Shown: positions 6,507-34,848 of the stretch, piece by piece
Layout of the letters: every line of letters begins with the position of its first letter
Numbering within the stretch: position 1 is the stretch's first letter
Assembly (NCBI GenBank): GCA_944386225.1
Contig: CALXAH010000031.1
Location: forward strand, 1-39,047
Direction: 5' to 3'
DNA from: an uncultured Gemmiger sp.
GTDB lineage: Bacteria > Bacillota > Clostridia > Oscillospirales > Ruminococcaceae
DNA length: 39,047 nt
The notes under the pieces: generated by a model
Told to the model about the DNA's origin: nothing
The model's database searches: none
What the model saw: only the letters and a program-made list of their open reading frames with translations
Translations under genes and position numbers: made by a program

Positions 6507-9500
6507 ATGTTTGATGCAGACAATCGTTTTGTGATCCGGGATTACCAGCAGGCGCCGGCGTTTTCCAGTTTCCTGTCCGGTGTGGCGGGCCCCAAAGGGG
6601 TGCCGGCCTGGGTGTACTACAACAACCGGGGGCAGGGTGTGTGCAGCTTCGGCGCCAAGGATAAGGACCACGCGATCATGGAGTTCAGCGCCGCGCATAC
6701 CGCTTACCAGAACAATGCCCGCACCGGCTTCCGCACCTTTGCCCGGGTGAACGGGGCCTATACCGAACTGTTCCGGGGAAAGTCGGACATGCATATCGGC
6801 ACTGCCGAAATGATGATCCGCCAGCAGGCGGAACCGCTCACCGCCGAGGTGCTTTACTGCGGCCTGCCCGACCATCGTCTGGCCGGCCTGATCCGGGTGC
6901 TTACCGTGACCAACACCTCCGAGGTTCCGGTGGAGCTGGAACTGCTGGACGGCATGCCCGCCGTGGTCTGCTACGGGGTGCAGCAGGATGCACTGAAGAA
7001 CATGGCCCAGCTGGCCAAGGCCTGGATGCAGGCAGAGTTCGGCGAGGATGGCACCACCCGTTTCGCGGTGCGCGCTTCCATGGCGGATACCGCCTGCGTC
7101 ACAACGGTGGAAGGGGTCAACTTCTGCCTGGCAATGGACGATACCGGCCGGCGTCTGCGTCCGCTGGTGAATCCGTCGCTGGTGTTCGGGCAGGATACCG
7201 GGCTGGAGATCGCCCGCGGGCTGGAGCAGCAGTCTCTGGCTCAGCTGTGCGCCCGTCCGCAGGTGATGCAGAACATCTTCCCCTGCTGCTTTGTGCCGGT
7301 AAGCCGCACCCTGCAGCCCGGCGAGCAGCTGTGTCTGTTCTCGCTGTACGGCCAGGCGGAAAGCCGTGCCATGCTGGAAAAGGTAACCGCCGTTGTGGAT
7401 ACCCCCGTCTGGTTCGAGGCGCAGTGCGCCTGCGCCCGTGCGCTGGGCGTTGAGCTGTCCGACGGGATCGATACCCACACCGCCGACCCGGTGCTTGACG
7501 CGTACTGCCGCCAGACCTGCGTGGATAACCTGCTGCGGGGCGGTATGCCGGTGTTCTTTGAAGGGGAGAACGGCAAAACCACGCCGTTCTATCTGTACTC
7601 CCGCAAGCACGGCGATCCGGAACGGGAATACAACTATTTCTCGGTAGGCGGCGAATACTACGCCCAGGGCAACGGCAACTTCCGGGATGTAAACCAGAAC
7701 CGCCGCTGCGACGTGCTCTTCCATCCGCGCCTCGGTGACGCCAATATCCGGATGTTCTACGAGCTGACCCAGACCGACGGATACAACCCGCTGGTGATCC
7801 TGCCCGGCACCTTCCATCTGGACGAGAGCGCCCGGCAGGCGATCCTGCAAACCCTGCCGGCCCTGTGCGCGGAGCAGGCGGCCGAACTGCTGGAGAAGGA
7901 CTTCACCCCCGGCCGTCTGGCCATGGCGGCGGAGGACTGGGGCATGGACGCTCAGCAGACCGACGCGTTCGTGGCCCGCTGCGTAACGATGGCAAACAGC
8001 GACCCCAACGCGAATTTCGGTGAAGGGTACTGGTGCGACCACTGGACCTATGACCTGGATCTGATCAAGAGCTATCTGGCGGTATACCCGGAGCGCAAGC
8101 AGGCGTTGCTGCTGGGCAGCCGGGATTACCGCTGGTATGCCAGCCAGGCTGCCGTTCTGCCGCTGGCCCGGCGCTGCTGCCTGACCGAAAACGGCCTGCG
8201 CCAGTACGCCAGCATTGATCATGACCGCCGCCAGAAATCCCAGGGGAACTGGCTGCTGGAACAGAACGGAACCGTGGCTGTCAGCACCCTGATGGAAAAG
8301 CTGCTGCTTCTGTGCGCGGTGAAGTCCGCCACGCTGGACCCGGCGGGTATGGCCGTGGAGATGGAGGGCGGCAAGCCCGGCTGGTACGACGCGCTGAACG
8401 GTTTGCCGGGCCTGTTTGGCTCCTCCATGTCGGAGAGCTGCGAGCTGGAATGCATGCTGAACTTTACCGCGGACGCGCTGGAGCAGATGCAGCAGGACGT
8501 GGAGCTGTATGAGGAGATCGCCTGGCTGCTGAAAACCGCGGCGGAGATCTCGGCCGTGCCGGAGCACTGGATCCGCTGGCAGCAGATGACTGCCCTGCGG
8601 GAGGAGTACCGTGCCCTGACCGCCGAAACGATGTCCGGCAAGCGGGTCACGATGGGCTGGGCGGAAACCGCCGCCATGCTGCGCGCCCTGAATACCATGG
8701 TGCAGGCCGGTATCCGCCGGGCCGAAGAGATGGGCGGCGGGCTGATCCCCACCTACTTCCAGTTCCGCGCCACCGGCTGGGAACAGACGGAAGAAGGGCT
8801 GATCCCCACCGGCCTTGAGCCCCAGGCGCTGCCCTATTTCCTGGAAGGGCCGGTGCGCCGTCTCAAGACCCGCATGACCCGGGAGGGAAAATGCGCCCTG
8901 GCGGACGCCGTGCAGGCCAGCGATCTGTACGACACCGCGCTGAAGATGTACAAGGTAAACGCCTCGCTGAACGATACCAGCTTCGAGATCGGCCGTGCCC
9001 GCGCCTTTACCCCCGGCTGGCTGGAAAACGAGTCCATCTGGCTGCACATGGAATATAAGTATCTGCTGGAGCTGCTCAAGAGCGGTCTGTATGAGCGCTT
9101 CTTCACCGCGTTCCAGGATGCGGCGGTGCCCTTCCTGGATCCGGCGGTCTACGGCCGCAGCCCGCTGGAAAACGTGTCCTTTATCGCGTCCAGCGTAAAC
9201 CCGGATCCCGACGCCCACGGCCGCGGCTTTGTGGCCCGTCTGTCCGGCTCCACCGCCGAATTTTTGCAGATGTGGCAGCTGATGTTCTTCGGCGCCGCCC
9301 CCTTTACGGCGGACGAAACCGGTCTGCATCTGCAGTTTGCCCCCGCTCTGCCCCAGCGCCTGATCCCGGAGGACGGCGTGGTGCGCTGCACCTTCCTGGG
9401 TCAGGTGGCGGTCACGCTGCGCTGCGGCGGCAAGCGGGACATGATCCCCGGCAGCTATACGGTCAAAAACTGGACGGTAACCTGCCAGGACGGCACGGTG

Positions 9501-9590
9501 CTGACCTGCCAGGGGCAGCAGCTGCCCGACGAACCGGCCCGCCTGGTGCGCAACGGCCTGGTCAGCGCGCTGGATGTTGAATTTGCGTAA
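6507..9590 (+). CDS. Large beta-oligoglucan phosphorylase (GH94/GH149/GH161 superfamily)
   Basis: A 1027-residue cytoplasmic protein related to phosphorylases of long beta-glucan oligomers. Family landmarks are an N-terminal GVPAWVYYNNRGQG block (about residues 31-44), YFSVGGEYYAQGNGNFRDVN (about 380-400), and GGKPGWYDALNGLPGLFGS, whose Asp (D628) fits the catalytic acid. The length matches 1,2-beta-oligoglucan phosphorylases of GH94 and the beta-1,3-oligoglucan phosphorylases of GH149 and GH161; I cannot choose among these by eye. It has a GGAGG ribosome binding site and lies 12 bases from the GH30 gene. It would shorten oligosaccharides stepwise and hand the disaccharide to the 882-residue phosphorylase. 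Confidence 0.85.
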   Translation: MFDADNRFVIRDYQQAPAFSSFLSGVAGPKGVPAWVYYNNRGQGVCSFGAKDKDHAIMEFSAAHTAYQNNARTGFRTFARVNGAYTELFRGKSDMHIGTAEMMIRQQAEPLTAEVLYCGLPDHRLAGLIRVLTVTNTSEVPVELELLDGMPAVVCYGVQQDALKNMAQLAKAWMQAEFGEDGTTRFAVRASMADTACVTTVEGVNFCLAMDDTGRRLRPLVNPSLVFGQDTGLEIARGLEQQSLAQLCARPQVMQNIFPCCFVPVSRTLQPGEQLCLFSLYGQAESRAMLEKVTAVVDTPVWFEAQCACARALGVELSDGIDTHTADPVLDAYCRQTCVDNLLRGGMPVFFEGENGKTTPFYLYSRKHGDPEREYNYFSVGGEYYAQGNGNFRDVNQNRRCDVLFHPRLGDANIRMFYELTQTDGYNPLVILPGTFHLDESARQAILQTLPALCAEQAAELLEKDFTPGRLAMAAEDWGMDAQQTDAFVARCVTMANSDPNANFGEGYWCDHWTYDLDLIKSYLAVYPERKQALLLGSRDYRWYASQAAVLPLARRCCLTENGLRQYASIDHDRRQKSQGNWLLEQNGTVAVSTLMEKLLLLCAVKSATLDPAGMAVEMEGGKPGWYDALNGLPGLFGSSMSESCELECMLNFTADALEQMQQDVELYEEIAWLLKTAAEISAVPEHWIRWQQMTALREEYRALTAETMSGKRVTMGWAETAAMLRALNTMVQAGIRRAEEMGGGLIPTYFQFRATGWEQTEEGLIPTGLEPQALPYFLEGPVRRLKTRMTREGKCALADAVQASDLYDTALKMYKVNASLNDTSFEIGRARAFTPGWLENESIWLHMEYKYLLELLKSGLYERFFTAFQDAAVPFLDPAVYGRSPLENVSFIASSVNPDPDAHGRGFVARLSGSTAEFLQMWQLMFFGAAPFTADETGLHLQFAPALPQRLIPEDGVVRCTFLGQVAVTLRCGGKRDMIPGSYTVKNWTVTCQDGTVLTCQGQQLPDEPARLVRNGLVSALDVEFA

Positions 9591-21793: not shown

Positions 21794-23650
21794 TTACCGC
21801 AGCACAAAGAACTGCTCATACCAGAGGATGAAGCTGTAGATGCTCCAGATCTGGGTCATGGCGCCGGGCTTGGCGGTGCCGTTCTTGTGGCTGTCCAGCA
21901 GCCGGATGCAGGCTTCGGGCACAAAGAACTTGGCGCAAACCTCGCCCTCGAACTTCTCCCGTACCATGTTGTAGTACTTGTCCTGGCGCAGCCAGTCGTT
22001 CAGCGGTACCGGGAAGCCCAGTTTCTTGCGCTTGGCCACGCTCTCGGGCAGCTGGGCCATGGCGGCGCGGCGCAGGGCGATCTTGGTCTGCTCCTTGCCG
22101 CTGCGCAGCCGGGCGGGCAGGGCGGTGGCCACCTTCAGAACCTCCCGATCCAGGAACGGAACCCGCAGTTCCAGGCTGTTGGCCATGCTCATCCGGTCGG
22201 CCTTGAGCAGAATGTCGTAGAGCATCCAGGTGTGGATGTCCACCCACTGCAGCTGGGTGGGCTCATCCAGCCCCTTCACCTGATCGAAATAGGGCTTGAA
22301 CCATTCCTCCGGCTTCTTGCTGTGGTAGTCCTTCTTCAGGTACTGATCCCGCTCGGCCGGGGTGGAGAACACATAGTTGGCCCGCATGAACCGCTGCCAG
22401 GGCTCCATGGCGCCCCGTATCACAAAGTTCTTGCCCTTGAAAGCAGGCAGGCGCCTGGCCAGTGCGGCAGCCGCCTTGCGCAGCGGGGCAGGGGTTTTGC
22501 TGTACTCGGCAAAGTGCCAGGCTGCACAGTACATGGGGTACCCGCCGAACAGCTCATCCGCGCCCTCGCCGCTCAGCACCACCTTCACATACTTGGCCGC
22601 GTTCTTGGTCAGGAAGTAGAGCGGCACCTCACTGGGGTTGGGCATCGGTTCGTCCAGATACCACTGGATGGTCTGGTTTGCCTCAAAGAACTCGTCGGCA
22701 TTCACCTTGTTGGCAATGCTGGGCACCCCGATCTCCTTGCTGAACGCCTGGGCATAGGGCAGCTCGGAGTACTTCTCCTCCTCATACCCCACGCTGAAAG
22801 ACTTCACGTGGGGGGTACCCTTGGCCACCTCGTTCACCACAAAGCTGGAGTCCACGCCGCTGGAGAGGAAACAGCCCACCTCCACGTCGGCGATCTGATG
22901 GGCGGCCACGCTCTCGCTGAACACCTCGGTGATCTTCTTCTGCCATTCCTCGTCGGTCAGGCTTTCGTCCGCCTGGAACCGGATATCAAAGTACCGGCGG
23001 GTTTCCAGCTTGCCGTCCTTCCAGCGCAGCCAGTGGGCGCCGGGCAGTTTGTACACACCCCGGAACATGGTCTCCTCGTTGGGAATGTACTCGATGGACA
23101 GGTACTCCGGCAGACGCTCCTCGTTCAGATCCTTCACAAAGCCCGGATGGGGCAGGAAACTCTTGATCTCGCTGCCGAACAGGAAATGTCCGCCCTGGTT
23201 GTAGTAGTAATAGGGCTTGATGCCGAAGATGTCCCGGGCGCCGAACAGCGTCTCGTTCTTCTTGTCCCAGAGCATAAAGGCAAACATGCCCCGCAGCTTG
23301 GCGGGCATATCCTCGCCCCACTGCTCGTAGCCGTGCAGCAGCACCTCGGTGTCCGACCGGGTGGAAAAGGTGTGGCCCGCCGCCTCCAGTTCGGCGCGCA
23401 GGGCCTGGAAGTTGTAGATCTCCCCGTTGAACACCACCACCAGGCTGCCGTCCTCGTTGAACATGGGCTGGGTACCGCCCTCCAGGTCAATGATGGACAG
23501 CCGCCGGTGCCCCAGGGCTACCCGCTCGTCCACATAGAAACCCTCACCGTCCGGCCCCCGATGGGCAATCAGGTCGCCCATTGCCTTGATGGTGGCCCGG
23601 GCCTCGGCCTGTTCCAGTTTTGCCGCGGCAAAACCCACGAATCCGCACAT
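21794..23650 (-). CDS. asnB: Asparagine-synthase-family amidotransferase (paralogue 1)
   Basis: A 618-residue glutamine-dependent amidotransferase. The N-terminal glutaminase domain starts MCGFVGF with the nucleophile Cys2 exposed after Met removal, and includes AHRGPDGEG and FNGEIYNF. The ATP-pyrophosphatase domain has SSGVDSS near residue 260 and LSGEGADELFGGYPMY. Known members make asparagine, but others amidate peptidoglycan: AsnB on meso-diaminopimelate in Bacillus and Lactobacillus, and AsnH on D-Asp cross-bridges in Lactococcus. Here it is 18 bases downstream of a D-Asp-ligase-like gene and close to murE, so a cell-wall role is favoured. Ribosome binding site GGAGGG precedes the ATG. 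Confidence 0.9.
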   Translation of the reverse strand: MCGFVGFAAAKLEQAEARATIKAMGDLIAHRGPDGEGFYVDERVALGHRRLSIIDLEGGTQPMFNEDGSLVVVFNGEIYNFQALRAELEAAGHTFSTRSDTEVLLHGYEQWGEDMPAKLRGMFAFMLWDKKNETLFGARDIFGIKPYYYYNQGGHFLFGSEIKSFLPHPGFVKDLNEERLPEYLSIEYIPNEETMFRGVYKLPGAHWLRWKDGKLETRRYFDIRFQADESLTDEEWQKKITEVFSESVAAHQIADVEVGCFLSSGVDSSFVVNEVAKGTPHVKSFSVGYEEEKYSELPYAQAFSKEIGVPSIANKVNADEFFEANQTIQWYLDEPMPNPSEVPLYFLTKNAAKYVKVVLSGEGADELFGGYPMYCAAWHFAEYSKTPAPLRKAAAALARRLPAFKGKNFVIRGAMEPWQRFMRANYVFSTPAERDQYLKKDYHSKKPEEWFKPYFDQVKGLDEPTQLQWVDIHTWMLYDILLKADRMSMANSLELRVPFLDREVLKVATALPARLRSGKEQTKIALRRAAMAQLPESVAKRKKLGFPVPLNDWLRQDKYYNMVREKFEGEVCAKFFVPEACIRLLDSHKNGTAKPGAMTQIWSIYSFILWYEQFFVLR

Positions 23651-23668: not shown

Positions 23669-24898
23669 TCAGTCTTTCAGACTCTTGTTGCCGAAATACC
23701 GCTTGTACTTGCGGTAGTTGTTCAGCTGGTTCTTGATGTACCAGATGCCCCTCTTCAGGCTGAAATCCTCCTTGCAGAACAGCTGGTGGCTGACCTTGCC
23801 CTCCCGGATCAGCGCTTCGGCCTGGGCCAGCAGATCCTTGTCCTTCAGATACCGGCGCAAAATGCCCGCCGGGGCGATCATCCACAGGCTGCGGGTATCG
23901 GCAATGGTCAGCTCGGCGGGCTTGTGCAGCACCACGTCGTCCACCAGCCATTTGGCCAGGTTGTAGCCGCTGGCGGTCACAAAGAAGCTGCTGCGCCCCT
24001 GCCGGGGATTCATCTCGAACATCTTGTACTGGCCGTCCCGCATGTCGTACTTCATGTCGAAGTTGGAGAAGCCTTCCCAGCCCACGTCCTCCAGGAACGC
24101 CTTCATCCGGCCCATGAGTTCCTCGTCCTTCACCGACAGGATGGCCGCGTAGTTGCCGATGCCTTCGGGGGTCTGTTCCTCCAGCAGCGGACGGCCCAGC
24201 GCCATCAGCCGCACCTTGTGATCCAGGCCGGAGTAGCAGTTCAGCACCCGCATCTGGCAGTCCTCGCCGGGGATATACTCCTGCAGCACCAGGCTGTCCT
24301 GGTAGCTGGAGGAATAGATAGCCGCCACGATCTCCTCAAATTCCTGCCGGTTGTTGGCGATGAACACCTTTTTCTTGTGGGGGAACTTGCAGTTCCAGTA
24401 GGCCACACTGTTGGAAGCCTTGATGATGCAGGGGAAATCAAAGGGCAGCTGTACCGTGCGCCAGTTTTCGGCGGTACAGCCGAAGGTGCGCGGGAAGGCG
24501 ATGCCGTGCGCCTCGCAGGCCTTGTAGAAGTTCTCCTTCATGTCCAGCTGTTCCCACAGTTCGGGGGTGGGGCAGGCGAAATGATACAGCCCCTCCAGCG
24601 CGGCCCGGTTGCGGGCCATCAGGCCGGTGTAGTTGTCGCCGCAGCTTACCAGCACCCGGGTGGTGTTCGGATGATCGGCGGCAAATTGTTTCATCACCGC
24701 CACAAAAACCTCGTCCTCTTCCAGGCGGGGCTCCACCACGGCGATCTTCACCAGCTTGGAGTTGGCGGTGGCGGCCAGCGCCCCCTTGCCGATGGCCAGG
24801 CTGGTCACGCCGTATTCCATATAAAAGCTGCGGGCCATGCCGTATACGTTGGCATCGCTGCCCAGCAGTACCGGCAAAAGATTCGTCAGCTGTTCCAT
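23669..24898 (-). CDS. ATP-grasp ligase, D-aspartate-ligase-like
   Basis: A 409-residue ATP-grasp enzyme. From memory it resembles the Enterococcus faecium D-aspartate ligase (Aslfm), which adds D-Asp to the lysine of the peptidoglycan precursor. Shared blocks are LLGSDANVYGMARSF near the N-terminus, LQEYIPGEDCQMRVLN, LLEEQTPEGIGNYAAI and GFSNFDMKYD followed by FEMNPRQGRSSFFVTASG. The last contains Mg-ATP-binding acidic and Asn residues of the ATP-grasp fold. The start is ATG at 24896-24898. An upstream ATG at 24948-24950 lies only a few bases after the predicted transcription start and has no ribosome binding site. Same operon as the following amidotransferase. The substrate is inferred, not proven. 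Confidence 0.82.
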   Translation of the reverse strand: MEQLTNLLPVLLGSDANVYGMARSFYMEYGVTSLAIGKGALAATANSKLVKIAVVEPRLEEDEVFVAVMKQFAADHPNTTRVLVSCGDNYTGLMARNRAALEGLYHFACPTPELWEQLDMKENFYKACEAHGIAFPRTFGCTAENWRTVQLPFDFPCIIKASNSVAYWNCKFPHKKKVFIANNRQEFEEIVAAIYSSSYQDSLVLQEYIPGEDCQMRVLNCYSGLDHKVRLMALGRPLLEEQTPEGIGNYAAILSVKDEELMGRMKAFLEDVGWEGFSNFDMKYDMRDGQYKMFEMNPRQGRSSFFVTASGYNLAKWLVDDVVLHKPAELTIADTRSLWMIAPAGILRRYLKDKDLLAQAEALIREGKVSHQLFCKEDFSLKRGIWYIKNQLNNYRKYKRYFGNKSLKD

Positions 24899-24961
24899 AC
24901 TTGATTCTGCCTCGATTCCCGCGCGCGCGGCGCGTGTAATAATAAGGGTCATACGGCTTTT

Positions 24962-24990
24962 ATTGTACTTCCGCCGGGGCGGTATGTCAA
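24962..24990 (-). promoter_or_regulatory. SigA promoter for the ATP-grasp/amidotransferase operon
   Basis: On the minus strand: TTGACA (24985-24990), a 17-base spacer, and TACAAT (24962-24967). This is near consensus. Transcription would begin near 24955, giving a leader of about 55 bases and supporting the ATG at 24898 as the start. Confidence 0.88.
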
Positions 24991-25001
24991 TCAAAAAGCC
25001 C

Positions 25002-25030
25002 TTTTAAAGCGGCTGTTTTCGTAGTATAAT
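25002..25030 (+). promoter_or_regulatory. Promoter for the second amidotransferase and murE
   Basis: A consensus TATAAT at 25025-25030 with a poor -35 (TTTTAA, 25002-25007, 17-base spacing). It is back-to-back with the minus-strand promoter; the two -35 boxes are 11 bases apart. Confidence 0.7.
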
Positions 25031-25111
25031 ATCAGCAGGCTGTGCGCGTTTGGGCGCGCAGGCAAACCGAGAGCGGGCCGGCGTTGTGCCCGCAGGAAAG
25101 GAATCAATGCC

Positions 25112-26941
25112 ATGTGTGGAATCACAGGTTTTACCAGTAAACGGGCGGACAAGGCTGAGATCCTCACCGCCATGATGGACGCCATCGCCCACCGGGGGCC
25201 GGACGGCGCGGGGCAGTATATCGACGAGCAGGTGGCGCTGGGTCACCGGCGCCTGTCCATCCTTGACCTGGAGGGCGGCAAGCAGCCCATGTTCAACGAG
25301 GACGGCCGCCTGGTGGTGGTGTTCAACGGCGAGATCTACAACTTCCAGGCCCTGCGCGCCGAACTGCAGGCCGCGGGCCATACCTTCGCCACCGACCATT
25401 CGGATACCGAGGTGCTGCTGCACGGCTACGAGGAATGGGGCCGGGATATGGTCACCCGCCTGCGCGGCATGTTCTCCTTTGCCATCTGGGACAAGGCCGC
25501 GGGCAAGCTGTTCTGCGCCCGGGACCATTTCGGCATCAAGCCCTTTTATTATTACCACAAGGGCGACAGCTTTATGTTCGGCAGCGAGATCAAAAGCTTT
25601 CTGGAAAATCCCGAGTTTGACAAGCGGTTTAACCCGGCCCAGCTGCAGCTGTACCTGAGCTTCCAGTATTCCCCGGGGGAGGATACCTTCTTCCAGAACG
25701 TGAAGAAGCTGCTGCCCGCCCATTGGCTGGAGTGGCAGGACGGCAAGGTAACGGTGGAGCGGTACTGGTCGCCCTCCTTTGACGCGGACGAAACCCGCAC
25801 CCTGGAGGACTGGGAAACCGACATCGAGGCCGCCATGAAGGAGAGCGTGGCCGCCCACAAGATCGCCGATGTGGAGGTGGGCAGCTTCTTGTCCAGCGGC
25901 GTGGACTCCAGCTATATGGCCTGCCTGGCCCATGTGGACAAGACCTTTACCGTGGGGTTTGCCGAGGCCCAGTACGACGAAACCCACTTTGCCCAGGACT
26001 TCAGCAAGCATATTGGGGTGAAGAACTTCGCCTACCGCATCACCCCGGAGGAATACTGGGCCAACCTGCCCAAGATCCAGTATCACATGGACGAGCCCCT
26101 GGCCGATGCCGCCAGCGCCGCACTGTATTTCGTCAACCGGGAGGCCGCCAAGCAGGTCAAGGTCTGCCTGTCCGGTGAGGGCGCGGACGAGTTTTTCGGC
26201 GGCTACAACATCTACAAGGAACCCTTTACCGTCAGCTGGTACGACCATGTGCCGCTGCCCATCCGCCGGGCGGTGGGCGCGGTGGCGGAAAAACTGCCGC
26301 CGGTGCGGGGCCTGAACTTCCTGGTGCGCCGCAGCCGCCCGCTGGAAGAGCGGTATATCGGCAACACCGACCTGATGGGGGAGCGGCGCAAAAAGCAGCT
26401 GCTGCGCCATTATATCCCCGGCGTGCTGCCCACCGGCCTGTCCCGCCCGCTGTTTGACAAGACCAAAGGGCAGGATCCGGTCACCCGGATGCAGTTCACC
26501 GACCTGCAGCTGTGGATGGTAGGGGATATCCTGCTGAAAGCGGACAAGATGAGCATGGCCAACAGCCTGGAGCTGCGGGTACCCTTCCTGGACCGGAAGG
26601 TGTTCGAGCTGGCCCGCCGCATTCCGGTGCGGTTCCGTGCCGACGCCCACAACACCAAGATCGCCATGCGCCGCGCCGCCCAGCGCAGCATTCCGCCCCA
26701 GACCGCCGACAAGAAAAAGCTGGGCTTCCCGGTACCGGTGCGCGCCTGGCTGCGGGATGAAAAGTACGCCGCCGTGGTGCGGGAGGCGTTCCACACCGAA
26801 GCCGCCCGGCAGTTCTTCCACACCGAAGCGCTGGACAAGATGCTGGATCAGCACCTGTCCGGCAAGCGGGATAACTGGCGGCAGATCTGGTGCGTGTTTG
26901 TATTTCTTGTGTGGTACAACGAATATTTTGTAAAGCGGTGA
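25112..26941 (+). CDS. asnB: Asparagine-synthase-family amidotransferase (paralogue 2)
   Basis: A 609-residue paralogue of the minus-strand amidotransferase. The glutaminase domain starts MCGITGFTSK (Cys2), with AHRGPDGAG and FNGEIYNFQ. The synthetase domain has SSGVDSS near residue 260, LSGEGADEFFGGYNIY, and DILLKADKMSMANSLELRVP. The ribosome binding site is AGGAAAGGA. Only 31 bases separate it from murE, so the two are cotranscribed. Two divergent copies around one promoter region suggest two different acceptors (for example D-Asp of a cross-bridge and the stem-peptide diamino acid), or one wall enzyme and one true asparagine synthetase. Confidence 0.9.
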   Translation: MCGITGFTSKRADKAEILTAMMDAIAHRGPDGAGQYIDEQVALGHRRLSILDLEGGKQPMFNEDGRLVVVFNGEIYNFQALRAELQAAGHTFATDHSDTEVLLHGYEEWGRDMVTRLRGMFSFAIWDKAAGKLFCARDHFGIKPFYYYHKGDSFMFGSEIKSFLENPEFDKRFNPAQLQLYLSFQYSPGEDTFFQNVKKLLPAHWLEWQDGKVTVERYWSPSFDADETRTLEDWETDIEAAMKESVAAHKIADVEVGSFLSSGVDSSYMACLAHVDKTFTVGFAEAQYDETHFAQDFSKHIGVKNFAYRITPEEYWANLPKIQYHMDEPLADAASAALYFVNREAAKQVKVCLSGEGADEFFGGYNIYKEPFTVSWYDHVPLPIRRAVGAVAEKLPPVRGLNFLVRRSRPLEERYIGNTDLMGERRKKQLLRHYIPGVLPTGLSRPLFDKTKGQDPVTRMQFTDLQLWMVGDILLKADKMSMANSLELRVPFLDRKVFELARRIPVRFRADAHNTKIAMRRAAQRSIPPQTADKKKLGFPVPVRAWLRDEKYAAVVREAFHTEAARQFFHTEALDKMLDQHLSGKRDNWRQIWCVFVFLVWYNEYFVKR

Positions 26942-26972
26942 GGGCCGCAAACCGAAAAATGGAGGTAACGCC

Positions 26973-28451
26973 ATGCTGCTGAGAGACCTTTTGAACGGAG
27001 TGGAACACACCCTCGTGCAGGGCACGACCGACCGGGAGGTCGCCGACGTGGTCTATGATACCCGCCGTCTTGTACCCGGCGCGCTCTTTGTCTGCATCGT
27101 GGGCACCAGCCGGGACAGCCATGACCTGGCTGCCGACGCGGTGGCCGCCGGGGCCGGGGTGCTGGTGATCCAGCACGATATCCCGCTGCCGGAGTCTGCG
27201 GTCACGGTGATCCGTGTGCCCTCCAGCCGCCGGGCCCTGGCGCTGCTCAGCGCCAACTGGTTCGGCCATCCCGCCCGAGAGATGACCATGATCGGCATTA
27301 CCGGCACCAAGGGCAAAACCACCACCGCCCATATGGTGCGGTCGGTGCTGCTGGCCGCCGGGCGCAAGACCGGCATCATCGGCACCAACGGCGTAGCCTA
27401 CGGGGACGTGCAGCAGGAACTGCCCAACACCACCCCCGAAAGCTATGAGCTGCAGCGGATGTTCCGGGATATGCGCAATGCCGGATGCGACAGCGTGGTC
27501 ATGGAGGTGTCCAGCCAGGGCATCATGATGGACCGGGTCACCGGCATCGAGTTTGACGTGGGCGTGTTCACCAACCTGTATCACGACCATATCGGCGGCC
27601 CCGGCGAGCACGCCACCTTTGAAGAATACCGGGACTGGAAAGGCCGGCTGTTCCGTCGCTGCAAGCTGGGGGTGGTCAACGCCGATGACCCCAACACCGA
27701 AGCCCTGCTGGCGGGCCATACCTGCAGCCTGGTCACCTACGGCGTGCACAGCAGCGCCGACTACCGGGCCGATAACCTGCAGCTGCTGCGGGCCGAGAAC
27801 TTCCTGGGCATCACCTTCCACGTCACCGGCAAGGAGGAGATGCAGGTCAAGGTGAATATGCCCGGCGAATTCAGCGTCTACAACGCGCTGGCGGCCATCG
27901 CGGTAGGCCGGGAACTGGGCCTGCCCCACGACGCCATCCAGGGCGGCCTGACCGACATCGCGGTCAAGGGCCGGGTGGAGATGGTGCCCATCAGCAAGGA
28001 ATTCACCATCCTGATCGACTTTGCCCACAACGAGGCGGGCACCGAAAGCCTGCTCACCACCCTGCGGGCCTACAAGCCCCACCGGCTGGTCTGCCTGTTC
28101 GGCTGCGGCGGCAACCGTTCCAAGCTGCGCCGGTACGGCATGGGCAAGGTGGCCAGCGAGATGGCGGATTTCCTCATCCTCACCGAGGACAACAACCGGT
28201 TTGAAAAGGTGGAGGACATCATTGCCGACATCCGGCAGGGCATCGCCCAGGGCAACCCCGATGTGCCCACCGTGGAGATCCCCGACCGGCTGGACGCCAT
28301 CCACTACGCCATCGACCACGCCCAGCCCGGCGACCTGATCTGCGTCATCGGCAAAGGCCACGAGACCTACCGGGATCGGATGGGGGTCAAAACCCCGTTC
28401 CTGGAGCGGGAACTCATTGAGGAATACGCCCGTGAAATCGGCCTGATCTGA
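26973..28451 (+). CDS. murE: UDP-MurNAc-tripeptide synthetase (MurE) with altered selectivity motif
   Basis: A 492-residue Mur ligase that adds the third stem-peptide residue to UDP-MurNAc-L-Ala-D-Glu in the cytoplasm. The N-terminal UDP-binding domain is followed by the ATP P-loop GITGTKGKTTTAHM, the central VMEVSSQGIMMDR and YHDHIG blocks, and the C-terminal domain with GKGHETYRDR. The position that selects the amino acid reads DNNR (residues 406-409), where meso-diaminopimelate enzymes have DNPR and L-lysine enzymes usually have DNPA or similar. Arg is kept but Pro is lost, so the third residue cannot be predicted safely. GGAGG precedes the ATG. Confidence 0.93.
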   Translation: MLLRDLLNGVEHTLVQGTTDREVADVVYDTRRLVPGALFVCIVGTSRDSHDLAADAVAAGAGVLVIQHDIPLPESAVTVIRVPSSRRALALLSANWFGHPAREMTMIGITGTKGKTTTAHMVRSVLLAAGRKTGIIGTNGVAYGDVQQELPNTTPESYELQRMFRDMRNAGCDSVVMEVSSQGIMMDRVTGIEFDVGVFTNLYHDHIGGPGEHATFEEYRDWKGRLFRRCKLGVVNADDPNTEALLAGHTCSLVTYGVHSSADYRADNLQLLRAENFLGITFHVTGKEEMQVKVNMPGEFSVYNALAAIAVGRELGLPHDAIQGGLTDIAVKGRVEMVPISKEFTILIDFAHNEAGTESLLTTLRAYKPHRLVCLFGCGGNRSKLRRYGMGKVASEMADFLILTEDNNRFEKVEDIIADIRQGIAQGNPDVPTVEIPDRLDAIHYAIDHAQPGDLICVIGKGHETYRDRMGVKTPFLERELIEEYAREIGLI

Positions 28452-28514: not shown

Positions 28515-30785
28515 ATGCCATTTTTTCACCGTAACCCGGCCCGCCCGCCCCGGCGGCCCCGTCCCGCTGCGCCGCCGCCGGCCACCGCGGGGCAATCCGC
28601 CGCCATGCGGCTGCGGGTACGGATTCTGGCGGGCGCCATGGCGCTGACCGTGGCCGGGGTGCTGGTGGCGCGTCTGGCCTGGCTGCAGCTGGCCGACTCC
28701 ACCTTCTATGCGGCCCGTGCCGCCCGCCAGCAGATGCGTTCCGCCACCGTGCCCGCACCCCGGGGGGATATCTGGTCCTCGGACGGTACCCTGCTGGCGG
28801 GCAGCGTCACCTGCTGGACCATCCGGGCGGTACCCCGGGAAATGCAGGAGGAACTGCTGGACGCAGCCGCCGCCGATCTGGCGGAGATTCTGAACGAGGA
28901 TGCCGAGAACTTTGCCAAAAAGTTTGCCGACCGGAAAAGCAACGATGCTCTTTTGGCCCGCCGGGTGGACCGGGAAACCGCCGACGCGGTGCGGGCCTAC
29001 TGCGAATCCACCGGCCTTTCCGGCATCCGCATCCAGCAGGACACCAAGCGTCTGTACCCGGAGGGGGATTTTGCCGCCAGCATCCTGGGCTTCACCAATG
29101 TGGACGGGGACGGTCTGGCCGGGCTGGAACTGAAATACAACGAAACCCTCACCGGCACCGAGGGCAGCGTGCTCACCGCCCGCAATGCCTGGGGCTATGA
29201 CCTGGAACAGGCCGATAGCATTTACCAGGCGCCGGTGCAGGGCAGCAGCCTGACCCTGACCATCGACGCCAACATCCAGCACTATCTGGAACAGCACCTG
29301 ACCTACGCGGTGCAGGAGCATAGCGTCTCCGCCCGGGCGGTGGGCATCGTGATGGACGTGAACACCGGGGCCATCCTGGCCATGGCCACCAAACCCGACT
29401 ACGACCCCAACCAGCCCCGTCTGATCGCAGACGAGACTACCCGCGCGGCGGTGGACGCGCTGACCGGGGAAGAGCGCGCCGCCGCGCTGCAGCTGGCGCA
29501 GCAGACCCAGTGGCGCAACAAGGCGGTGAGCGACCTGTACGAGCCGGGTTCGGTATTCAAGTTGATCACCGCCTCCGCCGCGCTGGACTGCGGCGCGGTG
29601 CAGCCGCTGACCCAGTTCACCTGCGGCAAATCCTACAAGGTGTCCGGGGTGGCGTTCCACTGTGCCAACAACAAGGCTCACGGTCTGCTCACGGTGCAGC
29701 AGGCGGTGGCCCAGTCCTGCAACCAGTCCCTGATCCAGATCGGCCAGCTGCTGGGCAAGGAGCGGTTCTACCAGTATTTCGAGGCGTTCGGCCTGACCGG
29801 CGCCACCGGCATCGACCTGCCCGCCGAGCCCGCCCGCAGCGAATACTATACCGCCGAGCGGATGGGCCCGGTGGAGCTGGCCAGCTGTTCCTTCGGCCAG
29901 TCCAGCAAGATTACCCCCATCCAGATGATCACGGCGGTGGCGGCGGTGGTCAACGGGGGCAGGCTCATGCAGCCCTATGTGGTGGCCAAGGTCACCGACG
30001 CGGCGGGCAATACAGTCAGCGAAACTCAGCCCCAGGTGCGCCGCCAGGTCATCAGTGAACAGACCAGCGCCGCCATGCGGGAGATACTGGAGCTTACCGT
30101 ATTGGAGGGCGGCGGCAAAAACGCCTATGTGGCCGGGTACCGGGTGGGCGGAAAATCCGGTACCAGCCAGAAGCTGGACTCGGAGGACGAGAAAGCCCGC
30201 ATCGCCAGCTTTGTGGGGGTGGCCCCCATCGACGATCCCCAGATTGCCGTGCTGATCTGCCTGGACGAACCCCACAGCTTCACCACCGCCGGCGGCAGCC
30301 TGTCCGCCCCGGTTGTGGCCCAGGTCATTGAGGATACCCTGTCCTACTGGGGTGTGCCCCGGGTGTATTCCCAGGAGGAACTGGACGCCATGCAGACCAC
30401 CGTGCCCGGCCTGGCAGGCTCCGCGCCGGACAAGGCGCTGGAACGGCTGGCGAACAACGGCCTTACCGGCAAGGTGGTAGGGGAGGGGGAGACCATCCTG
30501 CGCCAGTACCCGGAGGCGGGCCAGGCCCTGCCCCGGGGCTCCACCGTGCTGCTCTATACCACCGATGCGCAGCCCCTGTCGGTCACGGTTCCGTCGCTGG
30601 CCGGGCAGAGCTATGACCAGGCGGTGGCCGCGCTGCGGGCCGCCGGACTCAACCTGTGCGCCGAGGGCCCCGCCTGGTCCCAGGGCGCGGTGGCGGTATC
30701 CCAGAGCCTGACCGAGGGCCAGAACGTACCGATGGGCAGTGTGGTCACCGCCCGGTTCTGCGATTATTCCGCGGTAGACGATTAG
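28515..30785 (+). CDS. Class B penicillin-binding protein with PASTA domains (FtsI/SpoVD type)
   Basis: A 756-residue transpeptidase of septal wall synthesis. The order is a Pro/Arg-rich cytoplasmic tail (1-30), one membrane anchor (about 33-55), the PBP dimerisation domain, and the transpeptidase with acyl-enzyme S346 in GSVFK, S401 in SCN and K547 in KSGT. Two PASTA repeats follow (about 630-690 and 695-752; TVPGLAGSAPDKALERL and TVPSLAGQSYDQAVAAL). It lies 63 bases after murE and 61 bases before ftsW, whose product it should partner. PASTA domains are typical of SpoVD and Gram-positive PBP2x. SpoVD (sporulation) versus vegetative FtsI cannot be decided from sequence. Confidence 0.93.
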   Translation: MPFFHRNPARPPRRPRPAAPPPATAGQSAAMRLRVRILAGAMALTVAGVLVARLAWLQLADSTFYAARAARQQMRSATVPAPRGDIWSSDGTLLAGSVTCWTIRAVPREMQEELLDAAAADLAEILNEDAENFAKKFADRKSNDALLARRVDRETADAVRAYCESTGLSGIRIQQDTKRLYPEGDFAASILGFTNVDGDGLAGLELKYNETLTGTEGSVLTARNAWGYDLEQADSIYQAPVQGSSLTLTIDANIQHYLEQHLTYAVQEHSVSARAVGIVMDVNTGAILAMATKPDYDPNQPRLIADETTRAAVDALTGEERAAALQLAQQTQWRNKAVSDLYEPGSVFKLITASAALDCGAVQPLTQFTCGKSYKVSGVAFHCANNKAHGLLTVQQAVAQSCNQSLIQIGQLLGKERFYQYFEAFGLTGATGIDLPAEPARSEYYTAERMGPVELASCSFGQSSKITPIQMITAVAAVVNGGRLMQPYVVAKVTDAAGNTVSETQPQVRRQVISEQTSAAMREILELTVLEGGGKNAYVAGYRVGGKSGTSQKLDSEDEKARIASFVGVAPIDDPQIAVLICLDEPHSFTTAGGSLSAPVVAQVIEDTLSYWGVPRVYSQEELDAMQTTVPGLAGSAPDKALERLANNGLTGKVVGEGETILRQYPEAGQALPRGSTVLLYTTDAQPLSVTVPSLAGQSYDQAVAALRAAGLNLCAEGPAWSQGAVAVSQSLTEGQNVPMGSVVTARFCDYSAVDD

Positions 30786-30846: not shown

Positions 30847-31992
30847 ATGCGTCTGCGTTCTGTGAAAGAGAGGCTGTTCCCCGCCGGGCTGCCGGGGATG
30901 GACCTGCCTTTTTTCCTTCTGGTGCTCACCCTGCTCTGCTTCGGCCTGGTCATGCTGTACAGCGCCAGCTGCGCGGTGGGGCAGTACCGGTTCGACGATC
31001 CCTATACCTACATCCGCCCGCAGCTGCTCTTTGCGCTGGTGGGACTGGCCGCCCTCTGGGTTGCCAGCCGCCTGGACTACCATATTCTGCACGCCTGGGC
31101 CTGGCCGCTGTTTGGCCTGTCGCTGGTGCTGCTGGTGGTGGTGCTGTTCATGCCGGAATACAACGGCTGCCGCCGCTGGATCGTGATTCCGGGCCTGGGC
31201 ACTCTGCAGCCCAGCGAGATTGCCAAATTCTCGGTGATCGTGCTGTTCAGCCATCTGATTTCCCTGAACCATCCCAAAATGAAAAGCTTTTCGGTGGGGG
31301 TGCTGCCCTTTGCGCTGATCCTGGGCGCGGTGACGGTGCTCATGCTGCTGGAGCCGCACCTGTCCGGCACGCTGCTGATCCTGGCCATCGGGGCGGTGCT
31401 CATGTTTGTGGGCGGCACCGGCCTGCGCTGGTTCGCGCTGGCGGGCGGCGGGGCACTAGCCGCTTTGGCCGGGGCGCTGATCCTGCTGCCGGATCTGGTA
31501 CCCTATGCGGCCAGCCGCCTGTCCAGCTGGCTGGACCCCTTTGCCGATCCGCTGGGCGCGGGGCACCAGACCATCCAGAGTCTGTACGCCATCGGCTCGG
31601 GCGGTGCGCTGGGCATGGGGCTGGGCAACAGCCGCCAGAAACACCTCTACGTGCCCGAACCCCAGAACGATTTTATCTTTTCCATCCTCTGCGAGGAACT
31701 GGGCTTTGTGGGCGCAACGCTGGTGATCCTGTTGTTTGTGCTGCTGCTTACCCGGGGGCTCGCCATTGCGCTGCGGGCCGCGGATAAATTCGGCGCGCTG
31801 CTCACGGTGGGTTTTACGGTGCAGGTGGTGCTGCAGGCCGCCCTGAACATGGCGGTGGTCACCAACACCATCCCCAATACCGGTATCAGTCTGCCCTTCT
31901 TTTCCTCCGGCGGCACCAGCCTGATGATGCTGCTGGGGGAGATGGGCCTGGTGCTCTCGGTGGCCCGTCAGGGGGATCGTCCCGGCATGTAA
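30847..31992 (+). CDS. ftsW: SEDS-family glycosyltransferase FtsW
   Basis: A 381-residue polytopic membrane protein that polymerises lipid II at the septum with its class B PBP partner. About nine to ten hydrophobic helices are visible. The large loop reads WLDPFADPLGAGHQTIQSLYA, then GLGNSRQKHLYVPEPQNDFIF, which includes the catalytic aspartate of SEDS enzymes. The last helices contain NTIPNTGISLPFFSSGGTS, the FtsW/RodA signature. AAGGAGG precedes the ATG. The partner PBP lies immediately upstream and murA downstream. Confidence 0.92.
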   Translation: MRLRSVKERLFPAGLPGMDLPFFLLVLTLLCFGLVMLYSASCAVGQYRFDDPYTYIRPQLLFALVGLAALWVASRLDYHILHAWAWPLFGLSLVLLVVVLFMPEYNGCRRWIVIPGLGTLQPSEIAKFSVIVLFSHLISLNHPKMKSFSVGVLPFALILGAVTVLMLLEPHLSGTLLILAIGAVLMFVGGTGLRWFALAGGGALAALAGALILLPDLVPYAASRLSSWLDPFADPLGAGHQTIQSLYAIGSGGALGMGLGNSRQKHLYVPEPQNDFIFSILCEELGFVGATLVILLFVLLLTRGLAIALRAADKFGALLTVGFTVQVVLQAALNMAVVTNTIPNTGISLPFFSSGGTSLMMLLGEMGLVLSVARQGDRPGM

Positions 31993-32076: not shown

Positions 32077-33351
32077 GTGGGGGAGATCTTGCGGGTACGG
32101 GGCGGCAGGCCCCTGGAAGGTACAGTGCGCCTGCCCAGCGCCAAAAACAGCGTATTGCCGATCCTGGCGGCGGCGGTGCTGGCCGACGGGCCGGTGGTGC
32201 TGCGGGACGTGCCGGATCTGGCCGACGTGCACGCCAGCGTGACCATCCTGCGGGCACTGGGGCTTACGGTGCGCCGCCGGGGCGGGGATCTGCATTTGTT
32301 GCCTGCCCCGGTGCCGGGCTGGCAGCTGCCGGAAGCTCCTGCCCGGGCCATGCGCAGCTCGGTGTTTTATCTGGCCCCGGTGCTGCACCGGGCGGGCCGT
32401 GTGCGGATGGCGATGCCCGGCGGCTGCCGCCTGGGCCCCCGGCCCATCGACATCCATCTGGACGGACTGTCCCGCATGGGGGCACAGACCCTTTGGGAGG
32501 ACGGCTGGCTGGAACTGCGCACCTCCGCCCGCCTGCAGGGGATCGACTACACCCTGCGCCTGCCCAGCGTGGGCGCCACCGAAACCCTGCTCATGGCAGC
32601 GGCCCTGGCCAAGGGGGATACCGTGCTGCGGAATGTGGCCCGGGAACCGGAGATCCGGGACCTGGCGGATTTCCTCAATGCCTGCGGCGCGCGGATCGAG
32701 GGCGCGGGTCAACCGGTCATCCGGGTGCAGGGCAGGGCGTCCCTGCACGGGGCGCGGCACCGCCCCATTCCGGACCGGATCGTGGCGGCCACGGTGGCGG
32801 CGGCGGTGGCGGGCTGCGGCGGCTGTGTAACCATGCTGGGCACAGGGGAAGACCCCTTTGGCTCGGTAGCCGACGTACTGGAGCGGGCAGGCTGCCACAC
32901 CGACCACCCCGCGCCGGAAAGCTGGCGGGTGCAGCGGCAGGATCGCCTGCAGGGGGTAGGGCTTGTGCGCACCGGCGTATGGCCGGGCTTCTCCACCGAT
33001 GCAGCCCCGGTGGTGGCGGGCGGCCTGCTGGCAGCCCAGGGGGATACCGTGGTGGAGGACACCGTTTTTGAGGACCGGTTTGCCTGTGCCGAGGGCTTTG
33101 CCCAGCTGGGCGGGCAGGTCTGCCGCCGTGGCCGGACACTGGCGATGCACGGCCCGGTGCAGCTGAACGGGGCCCGGGTACGGGCATCGGATCTGCGGGG
33201 CGGCGCGGGCCTTGCGGTGGCAGCGCTGGCCGCGGCAGGGGAGAGCGTGGTGGAGGGCGCGGAGTATGTGCGCCGGGGCTACGCCGACCTGGCGGGGATG
33301 TTCCGGGCACTGGGGGCGGATGTGTGCGCCGGCCGTGAAAACAGGGCATGA
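32077..33351 (+). CDS. murA: UDP-GlcNAc 1-carboxyvinyltransferase
   Basis: A 424-residue enzyme of the first committed step of peptidoglycan synthesis, moving enolpyruvate from PEP to UDP-GlcNAc. The fold has the internal repeats of the EPSP-synthase family. The active-site KN pair is in SAKNSVLPIL (usually GAKNAALPIL), and the catalytic Cys is C117 in PGGCRLGPRPIDIH, so it should be sensitive to fosfomycin. The start is GTG 32077, with a GGGGGCGG site upstream; TTG 32089 is a possible shorter start. The C-terminus ends in CAGRENRA. In Clostridia murA often lies in this cluster, between ftsW/murG and ftsQ/ftsZ; murG and ftsQ are not here. Confidence 0.92.
   Translation: MGEILRVRGGRPLEGTVRLPSAKNSVLPILAAAVLADGPVVLRDVPDLADVHASVTILRALGLTVRRRGGDLHLLPAPVPGWQLPEAPARAMRSSVFYLAPVLHRAGRVRMAMPGGCRLGPRPIDIHLDGLSRMGAQTLWEDGWLELRTSARLQGIDYTLRLPSVGATETLLMAAALAKGDTVLRNVAREPEIRDLADFLNACGARIEGAGQPVIRVQGRASLHGARHRPIPDRIVAATVAAAVAGCGGCVTMLGTGEDPFGSVADVLERAGCHTDHPAPESWRVQRQDRLQGVGLVRTGVWPGFSTDAAPVVAGGLLAAQGDTVVEDTVFEDRFACAEGFAQLGGQVCRRGRTLAMHGPVQLNGARVRASDLRGGAGLAVAALAAAGESVVEGAEYVRRGYADLAGMFRALGADVCAGRENRA

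Positions 33352-33705: not shown

Positions 33706-34848
<1,143 letters not shown>

Follow-up and report, generated by a model that had tools for sequence, protein, structure and literature searches.

The wall-precursor locus and the question it raises

What might a gut bacterium build with a ligase resembling D-aspartate ligases and two asparagine synthase-like amidotransferases, all encoded around murE? This gene group lies in a 39,047-nucleotide stretch of DNA from an uncultured Gemmiger sp. (GenBank assembly GCA_944386225.1, contig CALXAH010000031.1, positions 1 to 39,047 of the forward strand). The whole stretch, hereafter the window, is contig C31 of a 3.38 Mb genome with a completeness of 99.8%. 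The closest named kin are Gemmiger sp. An120, whose ligase is 99% identical, and other Gemmiger and Fournierella. We propose that the locus probably builds a peptidoglycan precursor that is branched with D-aspartate (D-Asp) and doubly amidated, within a cell wall of the meso-diaminopimelic acid (mDAP) type. The four genes at the centre of this proposal are:

21794..23650, minus strand: AsnB2, N-type glutamine amidotransferase (DEPMPN), predicted to convert D-Asp to D-Asn (TIGR01536, clade linkage)
23669..24898, minus strand: ATP-grasp carboxylate-amine ligase, predicted D-aspartate ligase (AslA/Aslfm-like), 409 aa (homology and AlphaFold2 fold)
25112..26941, plus strand: AsnB1, D-type glutamine amidotransferase (DEPLAD), predicted mDAP amidotransferase (loop as in Listeria AsnB, PMC8554201)
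26973..28451, plus strand: MurE, mDAP type by motif (TEDNNRFE, GKGHE; NF001126, motif panel)

In the proposed pathway, the racemase RacD, encoded elsewhere in the genome, would convert L-Asp to D-Asp, and MurE would add mDAP to UDP-N-acetylmuramic acid (UDP-MurNAc)-L-Ala-D-Glu. AsnB1 would amidate the free carboxyl of mDAP. The ligase would use ATP to activate the beta-carboxyl of D-Asp and couple it to the amine on the side chain of the diamino acid. The alpha-carboxyl that D-Asp still has free would be amidated by AsnB2, and a penicillin-binding protein (PBP) would cross-link through the D-Asp/D-Asn bridge. The gene identities, their linkage, the co-occurrence of ligase and RacD, the D/N split of the AsnBs and the mDAP motif of MurE are read directly from the sequences. 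We infer each individual reaction from characterised relatives; mDAP as the acceptor is the new part and, of all steps, the least certain.

The original prediction for this DNA had placed a linked peptidoglycan tailoring module at 23669-28451, and it is borne out in large part. The genes that it named are present, namely the ligase and an amidotransferase on the minus strand and a second amidotransferase, murE, PBP, ftsW and murA on the plus strand, and the ligase and AsnBs do stand beside murE. The minus-strand AsnB2 lies outside that range, RacD is on another contig, and the mDAP type of MurE had been overlooked.

The ligase and its racemase

In a comparison with ligases from genera of known wall type, homology of the ATP-grasp protein to those from bacteria with D-Asp bridges extends over nearly the full length: identity is 49-50% to the ligases of Lysinibacillus, Ureibacillus and Kurthia and 36-43% to those of lactobacilli, Enterococcus and Vagococcus (42-43% for the latter two genera). 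Lysinibacillus is described as named after its Lys-Asp wall (PMC6971209), and in Lactococcus lactis aslA and racD are reported to share one operon, with AsnH amidating D-Asp (PMC4155827). An AlphaFold2 model from an alignment of 43 sequences had an ATP-grasp fold, with a predicted local distance difference test (pLDDT) score of 93, and its Foldseek matches in the PDB were ATP-grasp enzymes, among them the carbamoyl-phosphate synthetase-like 2pn1, the L-amino acid ligase 3vot and PylC 4ffl. No family in Pfam or NCBIfam was named above its cut-off, the Pfam ATP-grasp matches being sub-threshold; a PDB sequence search returned carbamoyl-phosphate synthetase alone (6.7e-5 and 6e-6), and a viral fold search gave generic ATP-grasp proteins and nothing more specific. 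In a tree of 88 ATP-grasp proteins, built by a quick method, 86 formed one set that joins the window's ligase to racemase-linked ligases, including those of Lysinibacillus, the contrast being two second ATP-grasp proteins of Paenibacillus and no others. This speaks against a grouping with unrelated carboxylate-amine ligases, as far as those two contrast proteins go.

A genome scan with the ligase kept 80 loci, the best 80 of 551 relatives. Within a limit of 5 kb, and with loci cut by contig ends included, a RacD-like gene was found in 54 of these, AsnB in 56 and MurE in 28. These linkage counts are biased, since the scan was anchored on the ligase, and the family surveys below are free of that bias. 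Frequent gene orders were (AsnB1)-ligase-RacD-AsnB2 in Acutalibacter-like genomes, ligase-RacD in Lysinibacillus and AsnB-MurE-ligase-RacD in Vagococcus lutrae. Clusters of AsnB-ligase-racemase or ligase-racemase-AsnB2 were also seen far outside Bacillota, in a Patescibacteria bin (L073) and an Eggerthellaceae bin (L068), which could reflect transfer or mis-binning. Two Paenibacillus loci (L081, L086) have, besides AsnB-ligase, a second cluster about 2-3 kb off with a racemase, a DNPK MurE and another ATP-grasp protein (24-25% identity).

In the window genome RacD is unlinked to the locus, at G000:C3:23175-23900, 4 kb from murI and, judged by eye, directly upstream of a metG-like frame. It is by sequence relation an aspartate-type racemase, and its best solved relative is the aspartate racemase 1jfl (1e-41). 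We surveyed 148 genomes drawn evenly from the window's taxonomic family; 24 were ligase-positive (E 1e-40) and 124 ligase-negative. A racemase (E 1e-20) was present in 24/24 of the former versus 11/124 of the latter (Fisher 1.5e-19). A set of 41 relatives held a ligase match in eight, including G034 (24% identity, E 5e-8); this weak match was not scored as the same ligase, which leaves seven ligase-positive relatives and 34 others. FemAB-type bridge enzymes were found in 0/7 of the ligase-positive relatives versus 18/34 of the others (p 0.012).

It is conceivable that the ligase, the racemase and AsnB2 handle another D-amino acid, such as D-cysteate, or a molecule outside the wall. The racemase scores over the NCBIfam 'cysteate racemase' cut-off (208 vs 190), and the ligase lacks a curated family of its own above cut-off. 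We consider this improbable. The racemases of Lysinibacillus, Ureibacillus and Kurthia are likewise over that cut-off, so the name is not decisive, and Lysinibacillus walls contain Lys and Asp. The kinship to 1jfl and the linkage to murE and wall-type amidotransferases also speak against this alternative.

Two classes of amidotransferase

AsnB1 and AsnB2 both start with MCG, both score over the TIGR01536 cut-off, and they are the sole full-length Asn_synthase matches of the genome, as would be expected if one of them were the housekeeping asparagine synthetase and its linkage accidental. This explanation is very improbable. The genome also has AsnA, which frees asparagine supply from a need for either AsnB; AsnB1 and AsnB2 both lack the D and R found in the E. 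coli stretch DVTTIR, and the linkage is clade-wide. Further on, both have 132-133 residues versus 51 in E. coli (about 80 longer). AsnBs that amidate mDAP are described as marked by loss of the Asp-binding residues and by an extra loop (PMC8554201), and we take the missing D and R and the longer stretch, at positions placed by comparison, to be those marks. As both AsnBs have them, they do not separate mDAP from D-Asp enzymes. The NCBIfam names 'XrtA/PEP-CTERM system amidotransferase' and 'lasso peptide cyclase' were rejected for the AsnBs, the matches being under their cut-offs.

A tree of 89 AsnB proteins and E. coli AsnB, for which 15 of 104 rows had been dropped (12 that were truncated or nearly identical copies, and 3 whose starts were wrong), separated the two. 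The AsnB2 clade has 34 rows, every one tied to a ligase or racemase, and the AsnB1 clade has 34 rows, of which 18 are murE-linked, 9 lie in ligase clusters and 7 are unlinked. AsnB2 orthologues (at least 63%) occurred in 17/24 ligase-positive and 0/124 ligase-negative genomes of the 148-genome survey (4e-17), and were thus confined to its ligase-positive genomes. Two murE-linked AsnB1 members come from G014 and G020, where no ligase was found, and an asnB1-murE pair with a DNNR MurE is also present in G172 and G176; the pair is therefore independent of the ligase in this group. In Lactiplantibacillus plantarum, asnB1 is reported to adjoin murE and AsnB1 to amidate mDAP (PMC4155827). A different clade holds the ligase-linked AsnBs of Enterococcus, Vagococcus, Lactobacillus, Kurthia and Paenibacillus, so AsnB2 may be a parallel recruit rather than an orthologue of AsnH.

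A single loop position follows this division. The loop reads DEPLADAA in AsnB1 and DEPMPNPS in AsnB2. Listeria AsnB is described as a proven mDAP amidotransferase (PMC8554201), and its loop, DDPLAD, is of the D type, as in AsnB1 and different from AsnB2; the comparison is with this one proven enzyme, whose gene was taken from strain NCTC7974, the paper's strain being ScottA. AsnB2 shares its N with those further ligase-linked AsnBs that do not belong to the AsnB1 clade. In a 94-row AsnB tree, 35 rows had D, 50 had N, the motif was missing in 8 and one had another residue. The 35 D rows are the AsnB1 clade and Listeria AsnB, and 44 of the 50 N rows adjoin a ligase or racemase. Of the remaining N rows, L077 has the order AsnB-MurE-ligase, L085 has a ligase in the locus but on the opposite strand, L156 comes from G037, whose ligase lies elsewhere, and three (L218-L220) are records from a plasmid collection.

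The site was found on this first set and then read in 64 survey genomes outside the discovery. D alone was found in 45/45 ligase-negative genomes and N in 19/19 ligase-positive ones (1.1e-16), with 17 of the 19 N calls made by sequence pattern and two (G084, G188) by eye. Thirteen genomes had been read earlier (G000, G001, G003, G005, G006, G008, G012, G014, G015, G020-G023). Together these make up the full 77 survey genomes in which AsnB was matched (E 1e-100), and D alone occurred in 53/53 without and N in 24/24 with the ligase. We predict that a single Asp/Asn loop residue tells mDAP-amidating from D-Asp-amidating enzymes of the AsnB type. By the tree, the survey and the D/N site, the two amidotransferases of the original idea belong to different classes: one goes with the ligase, and the other occurs whether or not the ligase is there.

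The roles of AsnB1 and AsnB2 might also be exchanged, or one enzyme might amidate both sites, with the ligase still using mDAP. Acceptor specificity is assigned here from one residue and linkage, and Acutalibacter-type loci hold both AsnBs inside the ligase cluster. However, D-type AsnB exists without the ligase and N-type AsnB was never found in ligase-free survey genomes, which makes such an exchange highly unlikely.

MurE and the proposed acceptor of D-aspartate

The acceptor depends on which diamino acid MurE adds. The motif of mDAP-type MurE is given as DNPR, with N and R as the residues that bind the carboxylate of mDAP (PMC3829189), and the window's MurE, with DNNR, keeps both. It scores 463 bits against the NCBIfam mDAP-ligase model NF001126 (cut-off 373), with other mDAP models below cut-off, and 304 against the L-lysine-ligase model, below the cut-off of 536; it is the single match in the genome at E 1e-20. 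The genome has dapF. Faecalibacterium, which belongs to the same family as the window organism (NCBI taxonomy), is reported to have mDAP, by thin-layer chromatography (PMC8166934). Given the MurE motif, dapF, the mDAP of Faecalibacterium and the asnB1-murE precedent of L. plantarum, the simplest reading is a wall with amidated mDAP to which D-Asp would be added by the ligase and amidated by AsnB2. The MurE motif points to mDAP as the acceptor; if the acceptor defines the D-Asp ligase family, this ligase would be a variant.

MurE motifs were compared in a panel of 25 ligase-bearing genomes reached through their loci, with further MurE copies left outside it (the third of G050, the second of G052, fragments in G057 and G058) and MurF-like second matches in L029 and L035 excluded by eye. 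MurE was solely DN[NSP]R in 14/25, and Eubacterium ramulus, Mordavella and Paenibacillus had a DNPR MurE and a second MurE-like protein. G014 and G020, in which the ligase was not found, have a DNNR MurE as in the window.

The locus could instead be an ordinary A4-alpha/beta module, in which Lys or Orn is the diamino acid that MurE incorporates, the ligase attaches D-Asp to it, AsnB2 amidates this D-Asp and AsnB1 has another task, for example D-Glu amidation. The described D-Asp ligases (PMC4155827) and Lysinibacillus (PMC6971209) use Lys, the MurE motif has lost its Pro, and MurT, which serves D-Glu amidation, is missing from the window genome, as from 36/41 genomes, leaving that reaction to another enzyme. 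We nevertheless regard this alternative as unlikely. N and R are still present in MurE, which scores over the cut-off of an mDAP model and under that of the Lys model; at the loop position AsnB1 agrees with an enzyme proven to amidate mDAP; and 53 ligase-free survey genomes (8 + 45) carry AsnBs of the D type, which makes these independent of D-Asp. Faecalibacterium, as its description states, contains mDAP (PMC8166934). AsnB1 might still amidate D-Glu; MurT was found in 1/14 relatives with D-type AsnB versus 4/27 others, with no clear tie between the two.

Several observations weigh against an mDAP acceptor or against parts of the pathway as proposed. The Pro of DNPR is missing in the window's MurE, and the motif alone is said not to fix MurE specificity (PMC3829189). 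Among ligase-bearing genomes, MurE reads DDPR in two Lysinibacillus (one of which also has DNPR), Ureibacillus and Kurthia, DDP[GA] in Vagococcus and two Enterococcus, DNPD in Faecalimicrobium and DNPG in G012, which also has DNPR; the ligase therefore often goes along with loss of the mDAP motif. The described D-Asp ligases are reported to use Lys precursors (PMC4155827). Within the ligase tree, a 35-row subset (Shimodaira-Hasegawa-like approximate likelihood ratio test 96) comprising the ligases of Lysinibacillus, Kurthia, Enterococcus, Vagococcus, lactobacilli, Paenibacillus and Lachnospiraceae excludes the window's ligase. The ligases of Lys-Asp bacteria thus fall in a separate set and the substrate could differ, which slightly lowered our confidence in the mDAP pathway and raised the Lys/Orn alternative. 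The link to the D-Asp ligase family runs through genera of known wall and not through biochemically tested ligases or the L. lactis AsnH. The Fisher tests count kindred genomes as independent; with G034 counted as a ligase bearer, FemAB becomes 1/8 versus 17/33, and G014 and G020 lack FemAB though they also lack the ligase. Two of the 19 N genomes (G084, G188) carry DQP in place of DEP (DQPQSN, read by eye), and the D and N states each require just 2 changes on the AsnB tree, which is a strong clade association and not a series of many independent switches.

Other observations concern MurE and DapF. G012 (L173, L175, L176) encodes one MurE with DNPR within its division cluster and, at a distance of about 9 kb from the ligase, another with DNPG, which suggests two precursor types in one genome. 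Lachnospiraceae and kin (L076, L082, L083, L085, L087, L089-L091, L185/G037) have a second MurE-like protein (GKG.ETRQ) beside the ligase, mostly accompanied by a racemase; in the three checked for it (L082, L090 and G037), a normal MurE is also present. On G000:C6 (L117:4303-8337, minus strand) a 1344-aa fusion joins CarB (carbamoyl-phosphate synthase large subunit) to DapF (diaminopimelate epimerase), beside a separate dapF at C12. Many relatives likewise show DapF matches within open frames 1274-1432 aa long.

Arrangement of the locus and neighbouring genes

A mechanical list of open reading frames gave the ATP-grasp frame as 23669-24994 with a TTG start. In L003 and L004 a stop falls in the upstream part of this frame, and L003 starts at the equivalent ATG; we therefore place the gene at 23669-24898 (409 aa). 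Gaps are 18 bp between ligase and AsnB2, 31 bp between AsnB1 and murE and 63 bp between murE and PBP. The other features of the locus are:

24899..25111, no strand: divergent spacer, 213 bp, with two opposed sigma-70-like promoters (promoter-box scan)
28515..30785, plus strand: penicillin-binding protein, SpoVD-like (best models under their cut-offs)
30847..31992, plus strand: FtsW/SpoVE-type protein (TIGR02614 332 bits, cut-off 337.5)
32077..33351, plus strand: MurA (NF006873 over cut-off)
33706..34848, plus strand: FtsZ (profile match)

Back-to-back promoters had been proposed for the spacer. A promoter-like pair does fall inside it, with boxes TTGACA 24990 / TACAAT 24962 on the minus strand (11/12 consensus positions) and TTTAAA 25003 / TATAAT 25030 on the plus strand (10/12). 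Both elements are conserved in An120, and a second Gemmiger genome keeps the boxes except the plus-strand -35; their count (2), though, is not higher than in shuffled sequence (mean 1.0, sd 1.0). The divergent murE-asnB1 / ligase-asnB2 arrangement, for which a survey of relatives had been suggested, recurs in 17 further loci and so exceeds chance. In the divergent loci the stop-to-stop frames of asnB1 and the ligase either overlap or are separated by as much as 4.2 kb. One control region common to both sides, as first envisaged, is therefore not conserved and was rejected as a unit.

The entire divergent locus is present in L026, a bin named Faecalibacterium sp. UBA1360. Positions 69-21750 of the window carry two groups of sugar-type ATP-binding cassette (ABC) transport genes, a histidine kinase, a response regulator, GH94-like, GH30 and GH3 enzymes and an aldo/keto reductase; the gene at 6507-9590 encodes a 1027-aa protein without a Pfam match.

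Wider meaning and comparison with known systems

Beyond this genome, we would give even chances to the view that many gut Oscillospirales (Gemmiger, Fournierella, Acutalibacter and kin) make a wall of amidated mDAP with an amidated D-Asp branch, in which an Asp/Asn loop switch sets the AsnB target. If true, the walls of abundant gut bacteria would be of an unusual mixed type, with mDAP that is itself amidated and bridges of D-Asn, and the amidation chemistry of uncultured bacteria would become readable from the genome. The analysis offers a one-residue rule, open to testing, for two enzymes that amidate the wall and are annotated as asparagine synthase. A further prediction is that members of the D-Asp ligase family can take mDAP as acceptor. 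Among open-licence papers, searched by title and opening of the abstract, none dealt with a D-Asp ligase of Gemmiger or of Oscillospirales, or with the D/N site. The one-residue rule and the gene combination, not met in this literature, would be new, and the component parts are of known kinds. One review enters Faecalibacterium as 'DAA: mesoDAP', gives no cross-link type for it and does not mention Gemmiger; it also states that amidation of mDAP abolishes NOD1 recognition (PMC11382707).

Two known systems offer partial parallels to the predicted chemistry. A4-gamma peptidoglycan, found in some actinobacteria, has mDAP with D-Asp or D-Glu bridges. It shares with the precursor predicted here a dicarboxylic D-amino acid on mDAP, but occurs in another phylum. 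PylC couples lysine, at its epsilon-amine, to a D-amino acid, and one PDB title names L-lysine-Ne-D-ornithine. The ATP-grasp fold is shared, with 12% identity in the fold alignment, although PylC serves another pathway, pyrrolysine synthesis.

The nearest parallel in gene content is the AslA/Aslfm-RacD-AsnH system of L. lactis and Enterococcus faecium, which likewise combines an ATP-grasp ligase, an aspartate racemase and an asparagine synthase-type amidotransferase. Its genes are described as often adjacent (PMC4155827), whereas racD is unlinked in the window genome; its acceptor is L-Lys, whereas the window's MurE appears to be of the mDAP type, and the AsnBs linked to the ligase in Enterococcus, Vagococcus and Lactobacillus belong to another clade than AsnB2. 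On the mDAP side, AsnB1 resembles Listeria AsnB in its D-type loop, and asnB1 stands beside murE as in L. plantarum (PMC4155827). That species is reported to have direct mDAP cross-links and to be without aslA (PMC4155827), whereas the window genome brings both systems together.

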